From a virus, in IMG/VR virus record IMGVR_UViG_3300011254_000007, positions 1 through 21,663 of that record: DNA of 21,663 nucleotides; one strand, written 5' to 3'. The notes beneath the pieces are model-generated. The model was not told the DNA's origin and did no database searches. It saw only the letters and a list, made by a program, of their open reading frames with translations. The first letter of the stretch is position 1. The number at the start of each line of letters is the position of its first letter. A program made the position numbers and the translations under genes. Shown piece by piece: positions 9,735 to 19,122 of the stretch.

Positions 9735-10121
9735 ATGGCTACACATCACGGAAAAGAGGGAGTTGTAACTGTTGGCGGAACAGCCATAGGAAATGTTACA
9801 GGTTACACCCTAGACACAACTCAAGACGTTGTTGAAACTACTGCATTAGAAGATTCCAATAAATCATATTTAGTAGGTAGAGGAACATTTACAGCTTCTA
9901 TTGATATGAACTATGACGAAACTAATGCACAACAAGCATCACTAGTACAAGGTTCAAGCCTTAGCTTTGTATTTTTACCAGAGGGTAATGCAAGTGGTGA
10001 TGAAAGTTTTAGTGGAACTGGAATTGTAACTGGAATGTCAGTTGGTGTTACACTTGATGGTGTTACAACTAGAACTGTATCATTACAAGGAACTGGTGGT
10101 ATTACTATCGGTACTGTGTAA
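9735..10121 (+). CDS. major tail tube protein
   Basis: A 128-residue all-beta protein rich in Gly/Thr/Val: GKEGVVTVGGTAIGNVTGYT, then TTQDVVETTALEDSNKSY and GRGTFTASIDMNYDETNAQQ. The 'V-x-x-T-(A/S)-L-x-D' strand, the 'G-x-x-T-x-x-I-D-M-x-YD' strand and the location just before the chaperone frameshift pair identify it as the small tail tube subunit used by many siphoviruses, which stacks as hexameric rings around the tape measure. The ribosome-binding site AAGGAG lies within the previous gene's end. It is shorter than lambda gpV (246) and has no C-terminal Ig domain. Confidence 0.85.
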   Translation: MATHHGKEGVVTVGGTAIGNVTGYTLDTTQDVVETTALEDSNKSYLVGRGTFTASIDMNYDETNAQQASLVQGSSLSFVFLPEGNASGDESFSGTGIVTGMSVGVTLDGVTTRTVSLQGTGGITIGTV

Positions 10122-10124
10122 GAT

Positions 10125-10475
10125 ATGTCAGAAAAAATAGACTACTTTGATGGTGTAAGAGAACATTTTAGTACATTAGAAACTCAGATAATCGAAGTGC
10201 CAGAGTGGGGTTTAGTAGGCGATAAAGCTATTTATTGCAAACCTTTTAATATGCTTGAAAAACAGAAAATTTTTAAGGGTGCTTCTGGTACTGACCTAAT
10301 AGTTTTGATTGATGTAATTATTGAAAAAGCATTAACAAAAGATGGCGATAAAATGTTTAATGCTACTCATGTTTTGGCATTTAAAACCAAAGCTGATACT
10401 AATGTAATTGCTGACGTTGCTACTAAAATAATGGGTACAGGAAACGACAATATAGACGAGAATAAAAAAAACTAA
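10125..10475 (+). CDS. tail assembly chaperone, short form (G)
   Basis: A 116-residue protein ending by normal termination at TAA 10473-10475. It occupies the slot of lambda gpG: after the tail tube, before the tape measure. The central part PEWGLVGDKAIYCKPFNMLE and LIVLIDVIIEKALTKDGDK resemble tail chaperones of small siphoviruses. The ribosome-binding region is poor (3-base gap after the tube gene), so it is probably translated by reinitiation. The last codons run AAT AAA AAA AAC, where the slippery heptamer of the frameshift lies. The short form should coat the tape measure together with the long form described next. Confidence 0.8.
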   Translation: MSEKIDYFDGVREHFSTLETQIIEVPEWGLVGDKAIYCKPFNMLEKQKIFKGASGTDLIVLIDVIIEKALTKDGDKMFNATHVLAFKTKADTNVIADVATKIMGTGNDNIDENKKN

Positions 10476-10645
10476 AAAGTGACCCAGAATTACATAATAT
10501 TTTTGGGTTAGCCGAAAAACTTCATAAGACTGTTTCTGAAATCTTGCAAATGTCAGTAAGTGAGTTTAATATGTGGATAGCGTATTATGCTTTACAAATT
10601 GAAGAACAAGAAAGACAAAACAGATTGATGAAAGCTAGACGATAG
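10125..10645 (+). CDS. tail assembly chaperone, -1 frameshift fusion (GT)
   Basis: If ribosomes slip -1 at A AAA AAC (10466-10472), translation continues CTA AAA AGT GAC from 10472 to a TAG at 10643-10645, adding 57 residues and giving 173 in total. The added T-like domain reads LKSDPELHNIFGLAEKL, then HKTVSEILQMSVSEFNMWIA and YYALQIEEQERQNRL: the 'L-...-V-x-E-l-x-x-MS-x-x-E-x-x-W-x-AYY-x-l' pattern typical of gpT-like extensions. There is no start codon with a usable ribosome-binding site early in this frame, so it is most simply explained as a fusion. Known role of the family: GT binds the tape measure and recruits tube subunits. The ratio of G to GT is set by slip efficiency. Confidence 0.85.
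10466..10510 (+). promoter_or_regulatory. -1 programmed ribosomal frameshift signal
   Basis: The slippery heptamer A AAA AAC is at 10466-10472, inside a run of eight A (10464-10471) and in the correct phase (zero-frame codons AAA AAC). The zero-frame stop TAA follows immediately. After a 7-base spacer, 10480-10489 can pair with 10501-10510 (ten pairs, two of them G-U, core CCC/GGG) around an 11-base loop. Heptamer, spacer and stem-loop have the classic layout of a -1 frameshift site. Confidence 0.85.
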
Positions 10646-12675
10646 TGGCAACAAAACAAGTAAACATAGATATATTAGCCAAAGATAAGACTGCAAAAGC
10701 TATGCAGTCAGCCACTAAAGGTGTTAATAAACTAAAAGATAACGTTCAACAATCTGTATCTGCACAAACAAATTCATTTAATGCTTTAGGTAATACTGTA
10801 AGAAATGTTGTTGGTGGTGTTATTGTTTTCCAAGCATTAAGATTCAGCAAAGAAATGGTCAATATGGCTAGTGCTGTTGAAGAAATGCAATCTAAGTCAG
10901 CAGTTGTTTTTGGAAATTTTGTTTCAGATGTAAGGGGTCAATTAGAAAAATTTGGAGATACAGTAGGTAGAAGCACCTTTGAATTAGAGGGAATGGCATC
11001 TTCTATACAAGACACCTTTGTTCCTATGGGATTTGCTCGTAAAGAAGCATCAAAATTATCAGTACAATTAACTAAATTAGCAGTAGATGTTGCATCATTT
11101 AACAATGCTAGTGATGTAGAAACAATGATGGCTTTTCAAAGTGCATTAGTTGGCAATCATGAAACAGTTAGACGTTTTGGAGTTGTTATTACAGAAGCAA
11201 CATTAAAACAAGAACTTCTTAGAATGGGGATAACAAAAACTGCTGATGAAGTAAGTAATGCTGAGAAAGTACAAGCAAGGTTAAACTTAATAATTGCAGG
11301 TACATCAGATGCTCAAGGAGATGCAGAACGGACAAATACAAGTTTTGCCAATTCTATGAAAGCATTAAGTGCTGAATTTCAAGAGTTTATGGTTGAAGCT
11401 ATAAACCCAATGTTACCTGCACTAGCCAATATGGTTCGTTCTATAAAAGATTCAATTATACAAACAAAAGAGTTTTTAAGAAGTATTGGGCTTTTAAAAG
11501 AATTAAATGAAATAGTTCCAATAGTAGACCAATTAGAAAAAAATCAAGATTCACTTTCTATTGCCACAGCTAAATTAACAAAAGAAACTGATTTGTTAAA
11601 TGCTATTCAAACAATGACATTTTTAGAAAAAAGCAAAGAATTTGCTAAAGCCAATGGCGAATTTGGAATGTCTATATTTCAAGGTGAAAAAGCTGTAAGA
11701 GATAGAATAGAAGCGTTAAAAGAAGAAATAAATCAAATAAATGCAAATAGAGAAAGTATCATTTTTGACTCTGAAATGAGAGAAATAAATACTACTAAAA
11801 TAAATAAACAAGTAGATGCACTAAAAAATTTAAATGAACAAAAAGCTAAAGCGACTGATGGAACTGCTTTGGGAATAGATGCAAGTATGGGCGGTGTTCC
11901 TACAGCATTCACAGATGAAGAAAAGCTATCTAGTTTAAGGGATATGGCATCATTAGAACTTGCTGTTCAAAAAGAAGCATTTGAAAACAAATATAATTTG
12001 ATACAAGAACAAGACGAATTGGAAGCCGAATTAAGAAGAATTAGGGCAGATGACACACTTACAATTGCTCGTGAAACTGCACAAAAGGAATTAGAAATAA
12101 GAAAAAAACTTTATGATGATAATTTAAATTTAATAAAAAATGGTAAAGCCAACCTAATAAATTTAGAAAAAATGTCTGGCAAAGAAATGAATGAATTGGC
12201 TAAAGATACTGGAAGATTAGCCTTAGCTGAAATGGCTCAAAATAATAAAAAGGCTTTTGCTCTTAACAAAGCTTTTAATATGGCTGAAGCTATAATGAAT
12301 ACTGCTACTGGTGTGAGTAAAGCCTTATCTACTGGTAATATTCCTCTGGCTGTTTTGATTGGTGTTCTGGGTGCGGTTCAAATAGCCACAATATCCCAAC
12401 AAAAATATCAAGGCAGACGTTTAGGTGGTCGAATGAACCAAGACCAACCTTATATGGTAGGAGAAGCAGGACCCGAATTAGTCGTGCCAGATAGAGCTTC
12501 AAATGTTGTGCCAAATGGTCAGCTAGGAAATATGGGAAAACAAGTTACAGTTAATTTTAATATAACTACAGTAGATGCTAAAGGGTTTAATCAATTATTG
12601 GTTAATTCTAGGGGTACTATTATTAATATGATTAATAGTGCTGTTAATGAAAAAGGTAAAATGGCGATAATATGA
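10645..12675 (+). CDS. tail tape measure protein
   Basis: A 676-residue, mainly helical protein that sets tail length and is threaded through the tube. Recognisable parts: N-terminal helices with AKDKTAKAMQSATKGVNKL; the common tape measure segment VASFNNASDVETMMAFQSAL followed by GNHETVRRFGVVI (about 149-182); long Lys/Glu-rich coiled coils (about 290-520); a hydrophobic stretch IPLAVLIGVLGAVQIATI (about 563-581); and the C-terminal GGRMNQDQPYMVGEAGPELV (about 594-613) typical of the family. It starts at GTG 10645, which shares its G with the GT stop TAG, so translation is coupled to the frameshifted product. At about 0.15 nm per residue, a tail near 100 nm is expected. Confidence 0.93.
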   Translation: MATKQVNIDILAKDKTAKAMQSATKGVNKLKDNVQQSVSAQTNSFNALGNTVRNVVGGVIVFQALRFSKEMVNMASAVEEMQSKSAVVFGNFVSDVRGQLEKFGDTVGRSTFELEGMASSIQDTFVPMGFARKEASKLSVQLTKLAVDVASFNNASDVETMMAFQSALVGNHETVRRFGVVITEATLKQELLRMGITKTADEVSNAEKVQARLNLIIAGTSDAQGDAERTNTSFANSMKALSAEFQEFMVEAINPMLPALANMVRSIKDSIIQTKEFLRSIGLLKELNEIVPIVDQLEKNQDSLSIATAKLTKETDLLNAIQTMTFLEKSKEFAKANGEFGMSIFQGEKAVRDRIEALKEEINQINANRESIIFDSEMREINTTKINKQVDALKNLNEQKAKATDGTALGIDASMGGVPTAFTDEEKLSSLRDMASLELAVQKEAFENKYNLIQEQDELEAELRRIRADDTLTIARETAQKELEIRKKLYDDNLNLIKNGKANLINLEKMSGKEMNELAKDTGRLALAEMAQNNKKAFALNKAFNMAEAIMNTATGVSKALSTGNIPLAVLIGVLGAVQIATISQQKYQGRRLGGRMNQDQPYMVGEAGPELVVPDRASNVVPNGQLGNMGKQVTVNFNITTVDAKGFNQLLVNSRGTIINMINSAVNEKGKMAII

Positions 12676-13280: not shown

Positions 13281-13846
13281 TGCCCAGAGGTTTAACAAGT
13301 GCAGTTAAAACAGAATTAACTACAGGAATAATTGAATCTATTCTTTTGGTAGAAATAGGGTTGGCAACACCAATTTATTTAACAAATGCAAGTTTTGACA
13401 TAACATCTAGTGTTTCTGGAACATCAAGAACATATTTAGCTAATGGGCATTTTAGAGGAATAACAGGGGTACAGGAAACAAATGCACCCACAAAAAACTC
13501 ATTATCCCTTAGTTTATCGGCTGTTGACCAAACTTATGTTTCCCTAGCTTTAAATGAAAATATAATTAACGATAATGTTTATATTTACCAAGGTTACTTA
13601 GATAGTAATTTAAGTGTTATAGCAGACCCTTTTTTATTGTTTTATGGAACAATAGATGAATTTAAAATATCTGATAATACTTCAACAGCTACTTTAGTTT
13701 TAGTATTAAGTTCACATTGGGGTAATTTTAGTAAAACAAGTGGTAGAACAACTACAAATAATTCACAGCAAAGATTTTTCCCAAATGATTTTGGCATGAA
13801 TTTTAGTGCTTTAACAGTTCGAGATATTAAATGGGGTAGAGAATGA
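13280..13846 (+). CDS. tail-tip hub-associated protein (lambda gpL/DUF2163-like position)
   Basis: A 188-residue beta-rich protein. The pattern IIESILLVEIGLATPIYLTN, then GTSRTYLANGHFRGITGVQE, SLSLSAVDQTYVSLALNENI and IYQGYLDSNLSVIADPFLLF followed by YGTIDEFKISDN is that of tail-tip proteins that pair with the central hub (a 'yLT-...-ng-f-...-i-...-n-...-G-x-I-...' series of strands). It follows the distal tail protein and overlaps the GNAT-like gene by four bases (ATGA). No Cys cluster of the lambda gpL iron-sulfur type is present, so it is not a straightforward gpL. Role by position and fold style. Confidence 0.66.
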   Translation: MPRGLTSAVKTELTTGIIESILLVEIGLATPIYLTNASFDITSSVSGTSRTYLANGHFRGITGVQETNAPTKNSLSLSLSAVDQTYVSLALNENIINDNVYIYQGYLDSNLSVIADPFLLFYGTIDEFKISDNTSTATLVLVLSSHWGNFSKTSGRTTTNNSQQRFFPNDFGMNFSALTVRDIKWGRE

Positions 13847-14286
13847 CCAGTACCCATATATATTATGCAGAAAGAACAGATGTTGAAAGCATCTATGAAA
13901 TGGCGATAGAATATAAAAATGTTGATTTAGCAGATGCGAATTATCCAGATATTGACAGGGGTAAATTAATACATTTTATTAATACTATGCTGAAAAAAGG
14001 CAAAATTATATTAATGAGGGATTTAGACAAAGATAAATTAATTGGTTGTTGTATGTTTAATAAATCAGAATATTTTTTTAGTAAAAGCGAAATTATGCAA
14101 ATACAAATAGTGTATATTAAAAAAGATTATAGAAATTTTAAATTAGTAAAGACTTTAATTGATAGTGTTAAAAGACAAGCTGATGGTTTGCCTATAGTTT
14201 TATCTATTACATCTGGATTAGGCATAGACCCAGTTTTTGAAAAATTAGGTTTTAAAAATATGGGTAGTAACTGGAGATTTGTGTAA
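13843..14286 (+). CDS. GNAT-like acetyltransferase-fold protein in the tail module
   Basis: A 147-residue protein with the overall GNAT layout: N-terminal helices (RTDVESIYEMAIEY), strand pair KIILMRDLDKDKLIGCCMFN, core strand plus helix IMQIQIVYIKKDYRNFKLVK followed by TLIDSVKR, and the C-terminal VFEKLGFKNMGSNWRFV typical of the family. The acyl-CoA pyrophosphate loop, normally (Q/R)-x-x-G-x-(G/A), is replaced by YRNFKLV (96-102), so CoA binding may be weak or lost. It lies between two tail-tip genes, where lambda-like phages carry the gpK peptidase and gpI. It may be a tail-tip assembly factor built on the GNAT fold or a modifying enzyme for a tail protein; the sequence does not decide. 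Overlapped start (ATGA); stop immediately adjacent to the hub ATG. Confidence 0.72.
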   Translation: MTSTHIYYAERTDVESIYEMAIEYKNVDLADANYPDIDRGKLIHFINTMLKKGKIILMRDLDKDKLIGCCMFNKSEYFFSKSEIMQIQIVYIKKDYRNFKLVKTLIDSVKRQADGLPIVLSITSGLGIDPVFEKLGFKNMGSNWRFV

Positions 14287-17280: not shown

Positions 17281-19122
17281 ATGTCACAAAATGATTTTAC
17301 TATTGCCAATCAAAGTTTCCCTGCTTTTAGGGCTGATTTAAATTCTGCTTTGCAAGCACTAGCCAGTAATAACTCTGGAACTTCTGCACCAAGCACGACT
17401 TTTGCTAATATGTGGTGGTATGATAGCACGAATAATATCATGTATATCAGAAACGAAGATAATGATGCTTGGATAAAGTTCGCAGAATTAGACCAGACTA
17501 ATGATAAATTCGTTTTAAGTGGCACATTACAATTAGATGATGGAACAGTTTCAGCACCTGCATTAACATTTAACTCTGATACTAATATGGGTATCTATAG
17601 AGGTGGCACAGACATATTAAAGTTTGTAACAGCAGGAACAGATGCGATTACCATAGATGCTAGTCAGAATGTTGGAATTGGAATTGCGACACCTACATCA
17701 AAATTGCAACTTCTTGGTGGAACTTCTGGATTAGACCAATTAAGTTTATCATCTAATTTAACTAATAACACAATTAAATTTGCAGGTGTTATTATGACAA
17801 ATTATGCAAATACTACAACTGCATTATTAGGTGCTAAAGCAGAAAGTGGCTCAACTTCAATTTATTATGGCTCATCTGGAACAGACCATAGAGGACCGCA
17901 AAATCATATTTTTTATACTAATGTCAGTCCTACAGCTACTTCTGGTAATACTAAACGTATGCAAATAGGTAATAATGGTGACATACTTTTAGGTTACGAA
18001 GACACAGGTACAACACCTAAGTTATTTTGGGATGCTAGTGCTGAGTCTTTAGGCATAGGCACAACGACCCCATCACAAAAAGTAGAATCTTCTAGTGCAA
18101 CAAATAATATAATTAATTCTAAAACTACTTTATCTACTGCATTAAGTGGTTTTACAGCATATGGAAACTCAACTTCACATATAAAAATGTTTCAATTTGG
18201 AAGTGCTTATGGTGGAACTGCTTTTGCAGGTTTGACAGGAAACAATCAAGCAATAATTGAAGCACAAGAAGCAAGTAGTTTAGTTATATCAACACAAGGT
18301 GGAACACCAGATATAGTATTTGCTCCTGCTAGAACTGCTAGAATGACTATTACTAATGCAGGTAATGTTGGAATAGGAAATACAAATCCAGAAGACTTTG
18401 GCTCTCTTGTTGACAATTTAGTAATTGGCACAACATCTGGGGAAAATGGTATGACCATTGCTAGTGGCACTTCTAATAGTGGAAGAATACAATTTGCTGA
18501 TAATACATCTTCTCCATTTAGGGGTGCTATTGAGTATGCTCATAGTAGTGATGCTATGCTTTTTTATACTGCAGGTTCACAACGTATGCGTATTGATAGT
18601 AGTGGTCGTCTTTTGGTAAATCAAACTGCTAATACTGGGTTTAGGTTTGTTTCTACTGCATTAGGTGCAGAGGGCTGTGTGGATTGTATAAGTAGTTCTA
18701 CTAATGGATACTATGCTTTGCGTATTGATATGCACGCAAACAACAATTATGCTGTCTTGTTTAGACAAGGGGGAAGTAATGTTGGCTCTATACTAACACA
18801 AAGTGGAGCAACAAGTTATAATACATCTTCAGATTACAGATTAAAAGAATCAGTAACTTATGATTTTGATGCAACAACTAGATTAAAGCAACTCAAGCCT
18901 TGCAGATTTAACTTTAAAGCATATGCAGACACTACAGTAGATGGTTTCTTGGCACATGAGGTGCAGTCAGTTGTACCAGAAGCAATTACTGGAACACACA
19001 ATGAAGTAGATGCAAATGGTAACCCAGTTTATCAAGGCATTGACCAAAGCAAACTTGTACCTTTGTTAGTAAAGACTATACAAGAATTAGAAGCTAGAAT
19101 TACAGCATTGGAAACAGCCTAA
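17281..19122 (+). CDS. tail fibre with C-terminal S74 intramolecular chaperone
   Basis: A 613-residue fibre. The N-terminal section FANMWWYDSTNNIMYIRNED followed by DAWIKFAEL is a common virion-attachment domain. The shaft contains collagen-free beta repeats marked by VGIGIATP (131-138), LGIGTTTP (about 257) and VGIGNTNP (about 363), and strands such as FVTAGTDAITIDASQN. The C-terminal roughly 100 residues form the peptidase S74 chaperone domain: SSDYRLKESVTYDFDATTRL (516-535), then VDGFLAHEVQSVVPEAITG, and a final coiled coil LVKTIQELEARITALE. In the family, the chaperone trimerises the fibre and then cuts itself off just before the Ser of the SD-x-RLK motif (here S517). It starts at ATG 17281 with GAGG overlapping the hub stop. 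Confidence 0.92.
   Translation: MSQNDFTIANQSFPAFRADLNSALQALASNNSGTSAPSTTFANMWWYDSTNNIMYIRNEDNDAWIKFAELDQTNDKFVLSGTLQLDDGTVSAPALTFNSDTNMGIYRGGTDILKFVTAGTDAITIDASQNVGIGIATPTSKLQLLGGTSGLDQLSLSSNLTNNTIKFAGVIMTNYANTTTALLGAKAESGSTSIYYGSSGTDHRGPQNHIFYTNVSPTATSGNTKRMQIGNNGDILLGYEDTGTTPKLFWDASAESLGIGTTTPSQKVESSSATNNIINSKTTLSTALSGFTAYGNSTSHIKMFQFGSAYGGTAFAGLTGNNQAIIEAQEASSLVISTQGGTPDIVFAPARTARMTITNAGNVGIGNTNPEDFGSLVDNLVIGTTSGENGMTIASGTSNSGRIQFADNTSSPFRGAIEYAHSSDAMLFYTAGSQRMRIDSSGRLLVNQTANTGFRFVSTALGAEGCVDCISSSTNGYYALRIDMHANNNYAVLFRQGGSNVGSILTQSGATSYNTSSDYRLKESVTYDFDATTRLKQLKPCRFNFKAYADTTVDGFLAHEVQSVVPEAITGTHNEVDANGNPVYQGIDQSKLVPLLVKTIQELEARITALETA

Follow-up and report, generated by a model that had tools for sequence, protein, structure and literature searches.

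Organization of the Tail Gene Region

We analyzed a linear virus record of 21,663 nucleotides (IMGVR_UViG_3300011254_000007), hereafter the window, in which two overlapping reading frames stand between the tail tube and tape measure genes, as in the lambda-type G/GT arrangement. The gene order was tail tube, G, T, and tape measure, and the features of this region were as follows.

9735 to 10121, + strand: tail tube (major tail) protein gene, directly 5' of G (phrog_10528, E 6e-12; weak Pfam tail tube matches)
10125 to 10475, + strand: gene G, tail assembly chaperone, 116 aa, zero frame (open reading frame, phrog_16513, 2OB9, pN/pS 0.14)
10463 to 10465, + strand: TAA in the -1 frame, the 5' limit of the shift window (sequence)
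10466 to 10472, + strand: slippery heptamer A_AAA_AAC (phase read from the sequence; in phase in 329 of 330 loci)
10472 to 10645, + strand: T extension, -1 frame, 57 codons plus TAG (translation, pN/pS, phrogs, three-helix model)
10473 to 10475, + strand: zero-frame stop TAA, adjoining the 3' end of the heptamer (sequence)
10480 to 10510, + strand: predicted hairpin, candidate stimulator, with arms 10480-10489 and 10501-10510 (-10.9 kcal/mol)
10645 to 12675, + strand: tape measure protein gene, its GTG start overlapping the T stop (phrog_1535, E 4e-13; tblastn to annotated tape measure proteins)

Gene G ended with the codons GAG AAT AAA AAA AAC TAA, of which the last four began at 10464 (AAA), 10467 (AAA), 10470 (AAC), and 10473 (TAA), and the heptamer sat inside a run of eight A residues (10464-10471). 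The preliminary description had claimed an in-phase slippery heptamer directly before the zero-frame stop, and this was borne out by A_AAA_AAC at 10466-10472 followed by TAA at 10473. The interval that it gave, 10464-10475, contains the site and comprises two Lys codons, an Asn codon, and the stop; the heptamer proper is confined to 10466-10472. Because a TAA occupies 10463-10465 in the -1 frame, a frame change is possible only within 10466-10475, and this -1-frame overlap was only 7 nt long in 77 of the 81 sequences closest to the window. Downstream, the -1 frame read LKSDPELHNIFGLAEKLHKTVSEILQMSVSEFNMWIAYYALQIEEQERQNRLMKARR (57 residues, open from 10472 to 10642) and ended at TAG 10643-10645, with many stops in the other two frames across the same stretch. 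This TAG and the tape-measure GTG share one base, the G at 10645 (TAGTG), and the claim of a -1 frame open for 57 codons up to that GTG thus held on translation. A G-T fusion would comprise 173 aa, with T as its C-terminal part.

The major capsid protein was 64-69% identical to those of the Pelagibacter phages HTVC112P, 111P, 026P, and 202P, which relates this virus to known SAR11 phages. Recognizable genes encoded a terminase, portal, capsid, tail terminator, tail tube, tape measure, and lambda J-like protein, a set that would specify a siphovirus-like tail. A Mom family protein (PF25680, E 1e-49; 207-845, + strand), Mom being a Mu-type DNA modification protein, was encoded beside the packaging genes, and a GNAT-type acetyltransferase (PF00583, E 2e-4; 13843-14286, + strand) amid the tail tip genes. 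The protein encoded at 17281-19122 (+ strand) carried a terminal Peptidase_S74 (endosialidase chaperone) domain (PF13884, E 6e-6) and is probably a self-cleaving tail fibre.

Identity of the G and T Proteins

The preliminary description had identified the product as a GT tail chaperone, and family membership, fold, and gene order all agreed with that identification. G matched phrog_16513 (tail assembly chaperone) with an E value of 9e-9, and T matched this family at its far end, together with phrog_337, 14766, and 25875. When the two were joined, the G-T fusion aligned collinearly with residues 9-156 of phrog_16513 at 60.6 bits; taken singly, G scored 36.7 bits and T 16.9 bits. The known tail assembly chaperones to which G and T showed homology were those of phrog_16513, 344, and 25875. 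The match of T to Pfam Phage_tail_T was weak and sub-threshold (E 0.03), searches of the fusion against Pfam and NCBIfam returned no accepted family, and a PDB sequence search gave no match for G and only spurious ones for T.

AlphaFold2 modeled G (pLDDT 82.5) as an alpha/beta fold of which one end was of low confidence. Among PDB structures, this model matched 2OB9, the HK97 tail assembly chaperone, best, at a probability of 0.99 and an E value of 0.016; YqbN (3KLU) came next. With 12% identity and a TM score of about 0.5, the predicted likeness to 2OB9, taken alone, is suggestive and not conclusive. T was modeled as a confident three-helix domain (pLDDT 93.7); in a fold search no solved structure matched it significantly, which can occur with a helical domain of 57 residues. 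Thus, family, fold, and gene order supported the assignment of G and T as a tail assembly chaperone.

Conservation of the Shift Site across Relatives

In the window, whose GC content is 33.5%, AAAAAAC occurred 12 times against 13.9 expected, and the heptamer count by itself was therefore dropped as evidence. The open reading frames of the window contained 64 in-phase heptamers of the form X_XXY_YYZ. At the one at 10466 the -1 frame overran the gene end by 170 nt, the next longest overrun among the 64 being 23 nt. It is the comparative data, rather than the motif, that place the shift site beyond chance.

We assembled a close set from the window and the 80 IMG/VR relatives that matched G-T best, and added loci from three more clades, for which HTVC202P, HTVC111P, and Roseobacter phage CRP-831 served as seeds, together with annotated phage records. 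In all 81 sequences of the close set, T was in the -1 phase, and A AAA AAC stood at the end of G. In total, 329 of the 330 loci having both G and T (261 distinct sequences) placed T at -1 with an in-phase heptamer, which was A_AAA_AAC in 246, A_AAA_AAG in 82, and G_GGA_AAC in one; the preliminary description had named conservation of the heptamer and T frame in related phages as a check, and both were conserved. Additional contigs related to RcRhea also carried G_GGA_AAC, and a genome-collection scan with the phi3LM21 protein yielded two hits, both rhizobial genome loci related to phi3LM21 and both with A_AAA_AAC. Because the loci kept were the best-scoring ones, favoring complete G-T genes, and many are closely related, the counts over 330 loci do not represent independent events. 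The switch of heptamer between clades with the phase always kept is stronger evidence than the locus counts.

These comparisons also bear on whether the frame break might be a homopolymer sequencing or assembly error, with G and T truly forming one gene. Homopolymers are error-prone, and one contig (L131:1501-1920) has G and T in a single frame; the same break, however, recurred in 329 loci, and since these include independent contigs as well as the finished genomes of cultured phages, a miscounted A-run is no explanation. The fusion in L131 arises from a deletion that took the end of G including the heptamer, and is either an assembly artefact or a natural variant without the frameshift. We consider the probability of an error at this site to be negligible.

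Variation in the A-run itself was informative about a second alternative, in which RNA polymerase slips on the eight A residues, adding one or losing two, and T is then translated normally. The eight A of the window and the nine A of the HTVC202P clade are long enough for conceivable slippage in an AT-rich genome. The HTVC111P clade, however, keeps the site with seven A; six A were found in some Roseobacter-phage-like contigs (CACACAAAAAACTAA) and in phi3LM21 (GCAAAAAACGAC); and the RcRhea-like site is GGGAAAC, the phase for tandem slippage being kept in every case. No long homopolymer was thus conserved across homologues, the run being 9, 8, 7, or 6 A or GGGAAAC. Since the heptamer form and its phase persist as the A-run varies, the pattern is that expected of ribosomal slippage. 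Some transcriptional contribution is possible in the clades with 8-9 A, and we assign only a small probability to polymerase slippage as the source of T.

Coding Selection on T and the Shift Site

Among the close relatives, pN/pS was 0.27 in the T frame, compared with 1.24 and 1.31 in the other two frames, and 0.14 for G in its own frame. These substitution patterns show that the T frame is protein-coding and under purifying selection. The terminal AAA AAA AAC of G did not vary in 60 distinct sequences; AAG makes up 19% of Lys codons in the G genes of close relatives, yet the terminal Lys codons stay AAA. Similarly, synonymous change was about 0.4-0.8 over most of G and fell to 0.12 across its last five codons.

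A coding T frame might also be translated independently, by re-initiation past the G stop or by internal initiation, and such a route would fit both the operon-like array in which T lies, flanked by G and the tape measure gene, and the frequency of re-initiation near stops in phages. Yet none of the 81 sequences offered a start codon in the interval from the upstream -1 stop to the heptamer; in 69 of them T had its first start codon, a TTG, at codon 25, and a product begun there would omit the conserved SDPEL..LAEKL part. Independent initiation moreover leaves the conserved heptamer unexplained, and we regard it as very improbable, in contrast to a -1 ribosomal shift at that heptamer.

A Candidate Stimulatory Hairpin

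A predicted 10-bp hairpin followed the heptamer after a 7-nt spacer (-10.9 kcal/mol, z -3.2 compared with dinucleotide shuffles). Its pairs were formable at 80% in 41 distinct close relatives, compared with 32-69% for slid registers; all ten pairs were intact in only 8 of these 41. Two inner pairs were broken in about half of the close relatives, and the hairpin was broken or replaced in approximately half. In the HTVC111P clade, a 7-bp stem was present in almost all sequences, with variation too low to reveal covariation, and the Roseobacter-phage clade had an inner stem with one compensated pair. RNAalifold on the clade alignments returned almost no consensus structure, and base pairs were therefore counted directly; an Rfam search of the window gave no match. 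On these predictions, the window probably has a stimulatory hairpin, and one is plausible across the family.

Comparison with Known Frameshift Systems and Proposed Mechanism

A conserved -1 frameshift in tail assembly genes was reportedly described by Xu, Hendrix, and Duda in 2004, and the subject is reviewed in PMC5009743. The locus shares with lambda gpG/gpGT a two-part chaperone encoded between tail tube and tape measure, with T reached through a -1 heptamer near the end of G; it differs in that A_AAA_AAC sits directly at the stop, in that no significant sequence similarity to lambda G was shown, and in that T is only weakly like Phage_tail_T. The lambda heptamer is G_GGA_AAG and is more distant from the stop. 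Among closer systems, Rhodobacter phage RcRhea (Cronusvirus) has homologous, collinear G and T of phrog_16513 with a joined CDS annotated, but its heptamer is G_GGA_AAC in GC-rich sequence. The Pelagibacter phages HTVC026P, HTVC202P, HTVC111P, and HTVC112P share a homologous G, the heptamer, the T frame, and the gene order, but are only 35-40% identical in G-T, with A_AAA_AAG in 111P and 112P. The HK97 tail assembly chaperone (2OB9), the best fold match of the G model, has just 12% identity to it.

In lambda, gpG is made together with a low-level -1 shift product, gpGT, at a ratio near 30:1, G binding the tape measure and T the tail tube protein, and the G/GT arrangement is widespread among long-tailed phages (PMC5009743). 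In E. coli, A_AAA_AAC is far less shift-prone than A_AAA_AAG (PMC5009743), which counts against the frameshift reading. The haloarchaeal virus HCTV-2 is reported to use A_AAA_AAC for its g-t frameshift (PMC5009743); it shares the heptamer with the window but has an archaeal host, and is likened here by description. Two cloned genes from a phage tail assembly chaperone cluster gave 6 and 7% shifting (PMC3711429), and such a shift has been speculated on in the SAR11 siphovirus Kolga (PMC8163748). In the open-licence literature, we found no description of a shift in HTVC-type pelagiphages, which is a weak absence.

Taken together, the results well support a genuine frameshift site like that of lambda G/GT and of a sort that is usual in tailed phages, and we consider it highly probable that G and G-T are made as a lambda-type chaperone pair through a -1 ribosomal shift at A_AAA_AAC. 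The majority of ribosomes would terminate at the TAA at 10473 and yield G, and a minority would slip back one base, with tRNA-Lys and tRNA-Asn on A_AAA_AAC (10466-10472), and continue for 57 codons to give the 173-residue G-T protein, possibly helped by the hairpin. By analogy with lambda, G would coat the tape measure protein, the T part would recruit the tail tube protein, and the shift rate would set the G:GT ratio required for tail assembly. It is conceivable, if rather unlikely, that A_AAA_AAC has been retained because the tRNAs and ribosomes of SAR11 and related marine alphaproteobacteria shift well there, and that related clades retuned the G:GT ratio through A_AAA_AAG and a strong hairpin.

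Annotation of T in Cultured Pelagiphages

The shift kind is well known; what is new is this member itself and the annotation gap for T in cultured pelagiphages. The preliminary description had expected standard gene finding to miss T, and T was indeed unannotated in the records of four cultured pelagiphages (HTVC026P, HTVC111P, HTVC112P, and HTVC202P), but the joined CDS of RcRhea shows that the gap is not general. Our analysis thus adds a missing gene product for a widespread marine phage group with relatives among cultured SAR11 phages, and it corrects annotations in which T is absent and, in two cases, a minus-strand gene lies over it. The clades moreover differ naturally in their shift site (A_AAA_AAC, A_AAA_AAG, or G_GGA_AAC) and in whether a hairpin follows it, a series that could be used to ask how alphaproteobacteria tune the frameshift rate.

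The two minus-strand genes drawn across the T frame, HTVC111P gp45 (L085:2894-3046) and HTVC112P gp41 (L086:2894-3040), are probably spurious. The records L083-L086 belong to phages with the suffix P (podovirus), and the tail tube, tail chaperone, and tape measure genes that they carry point to a long tail.
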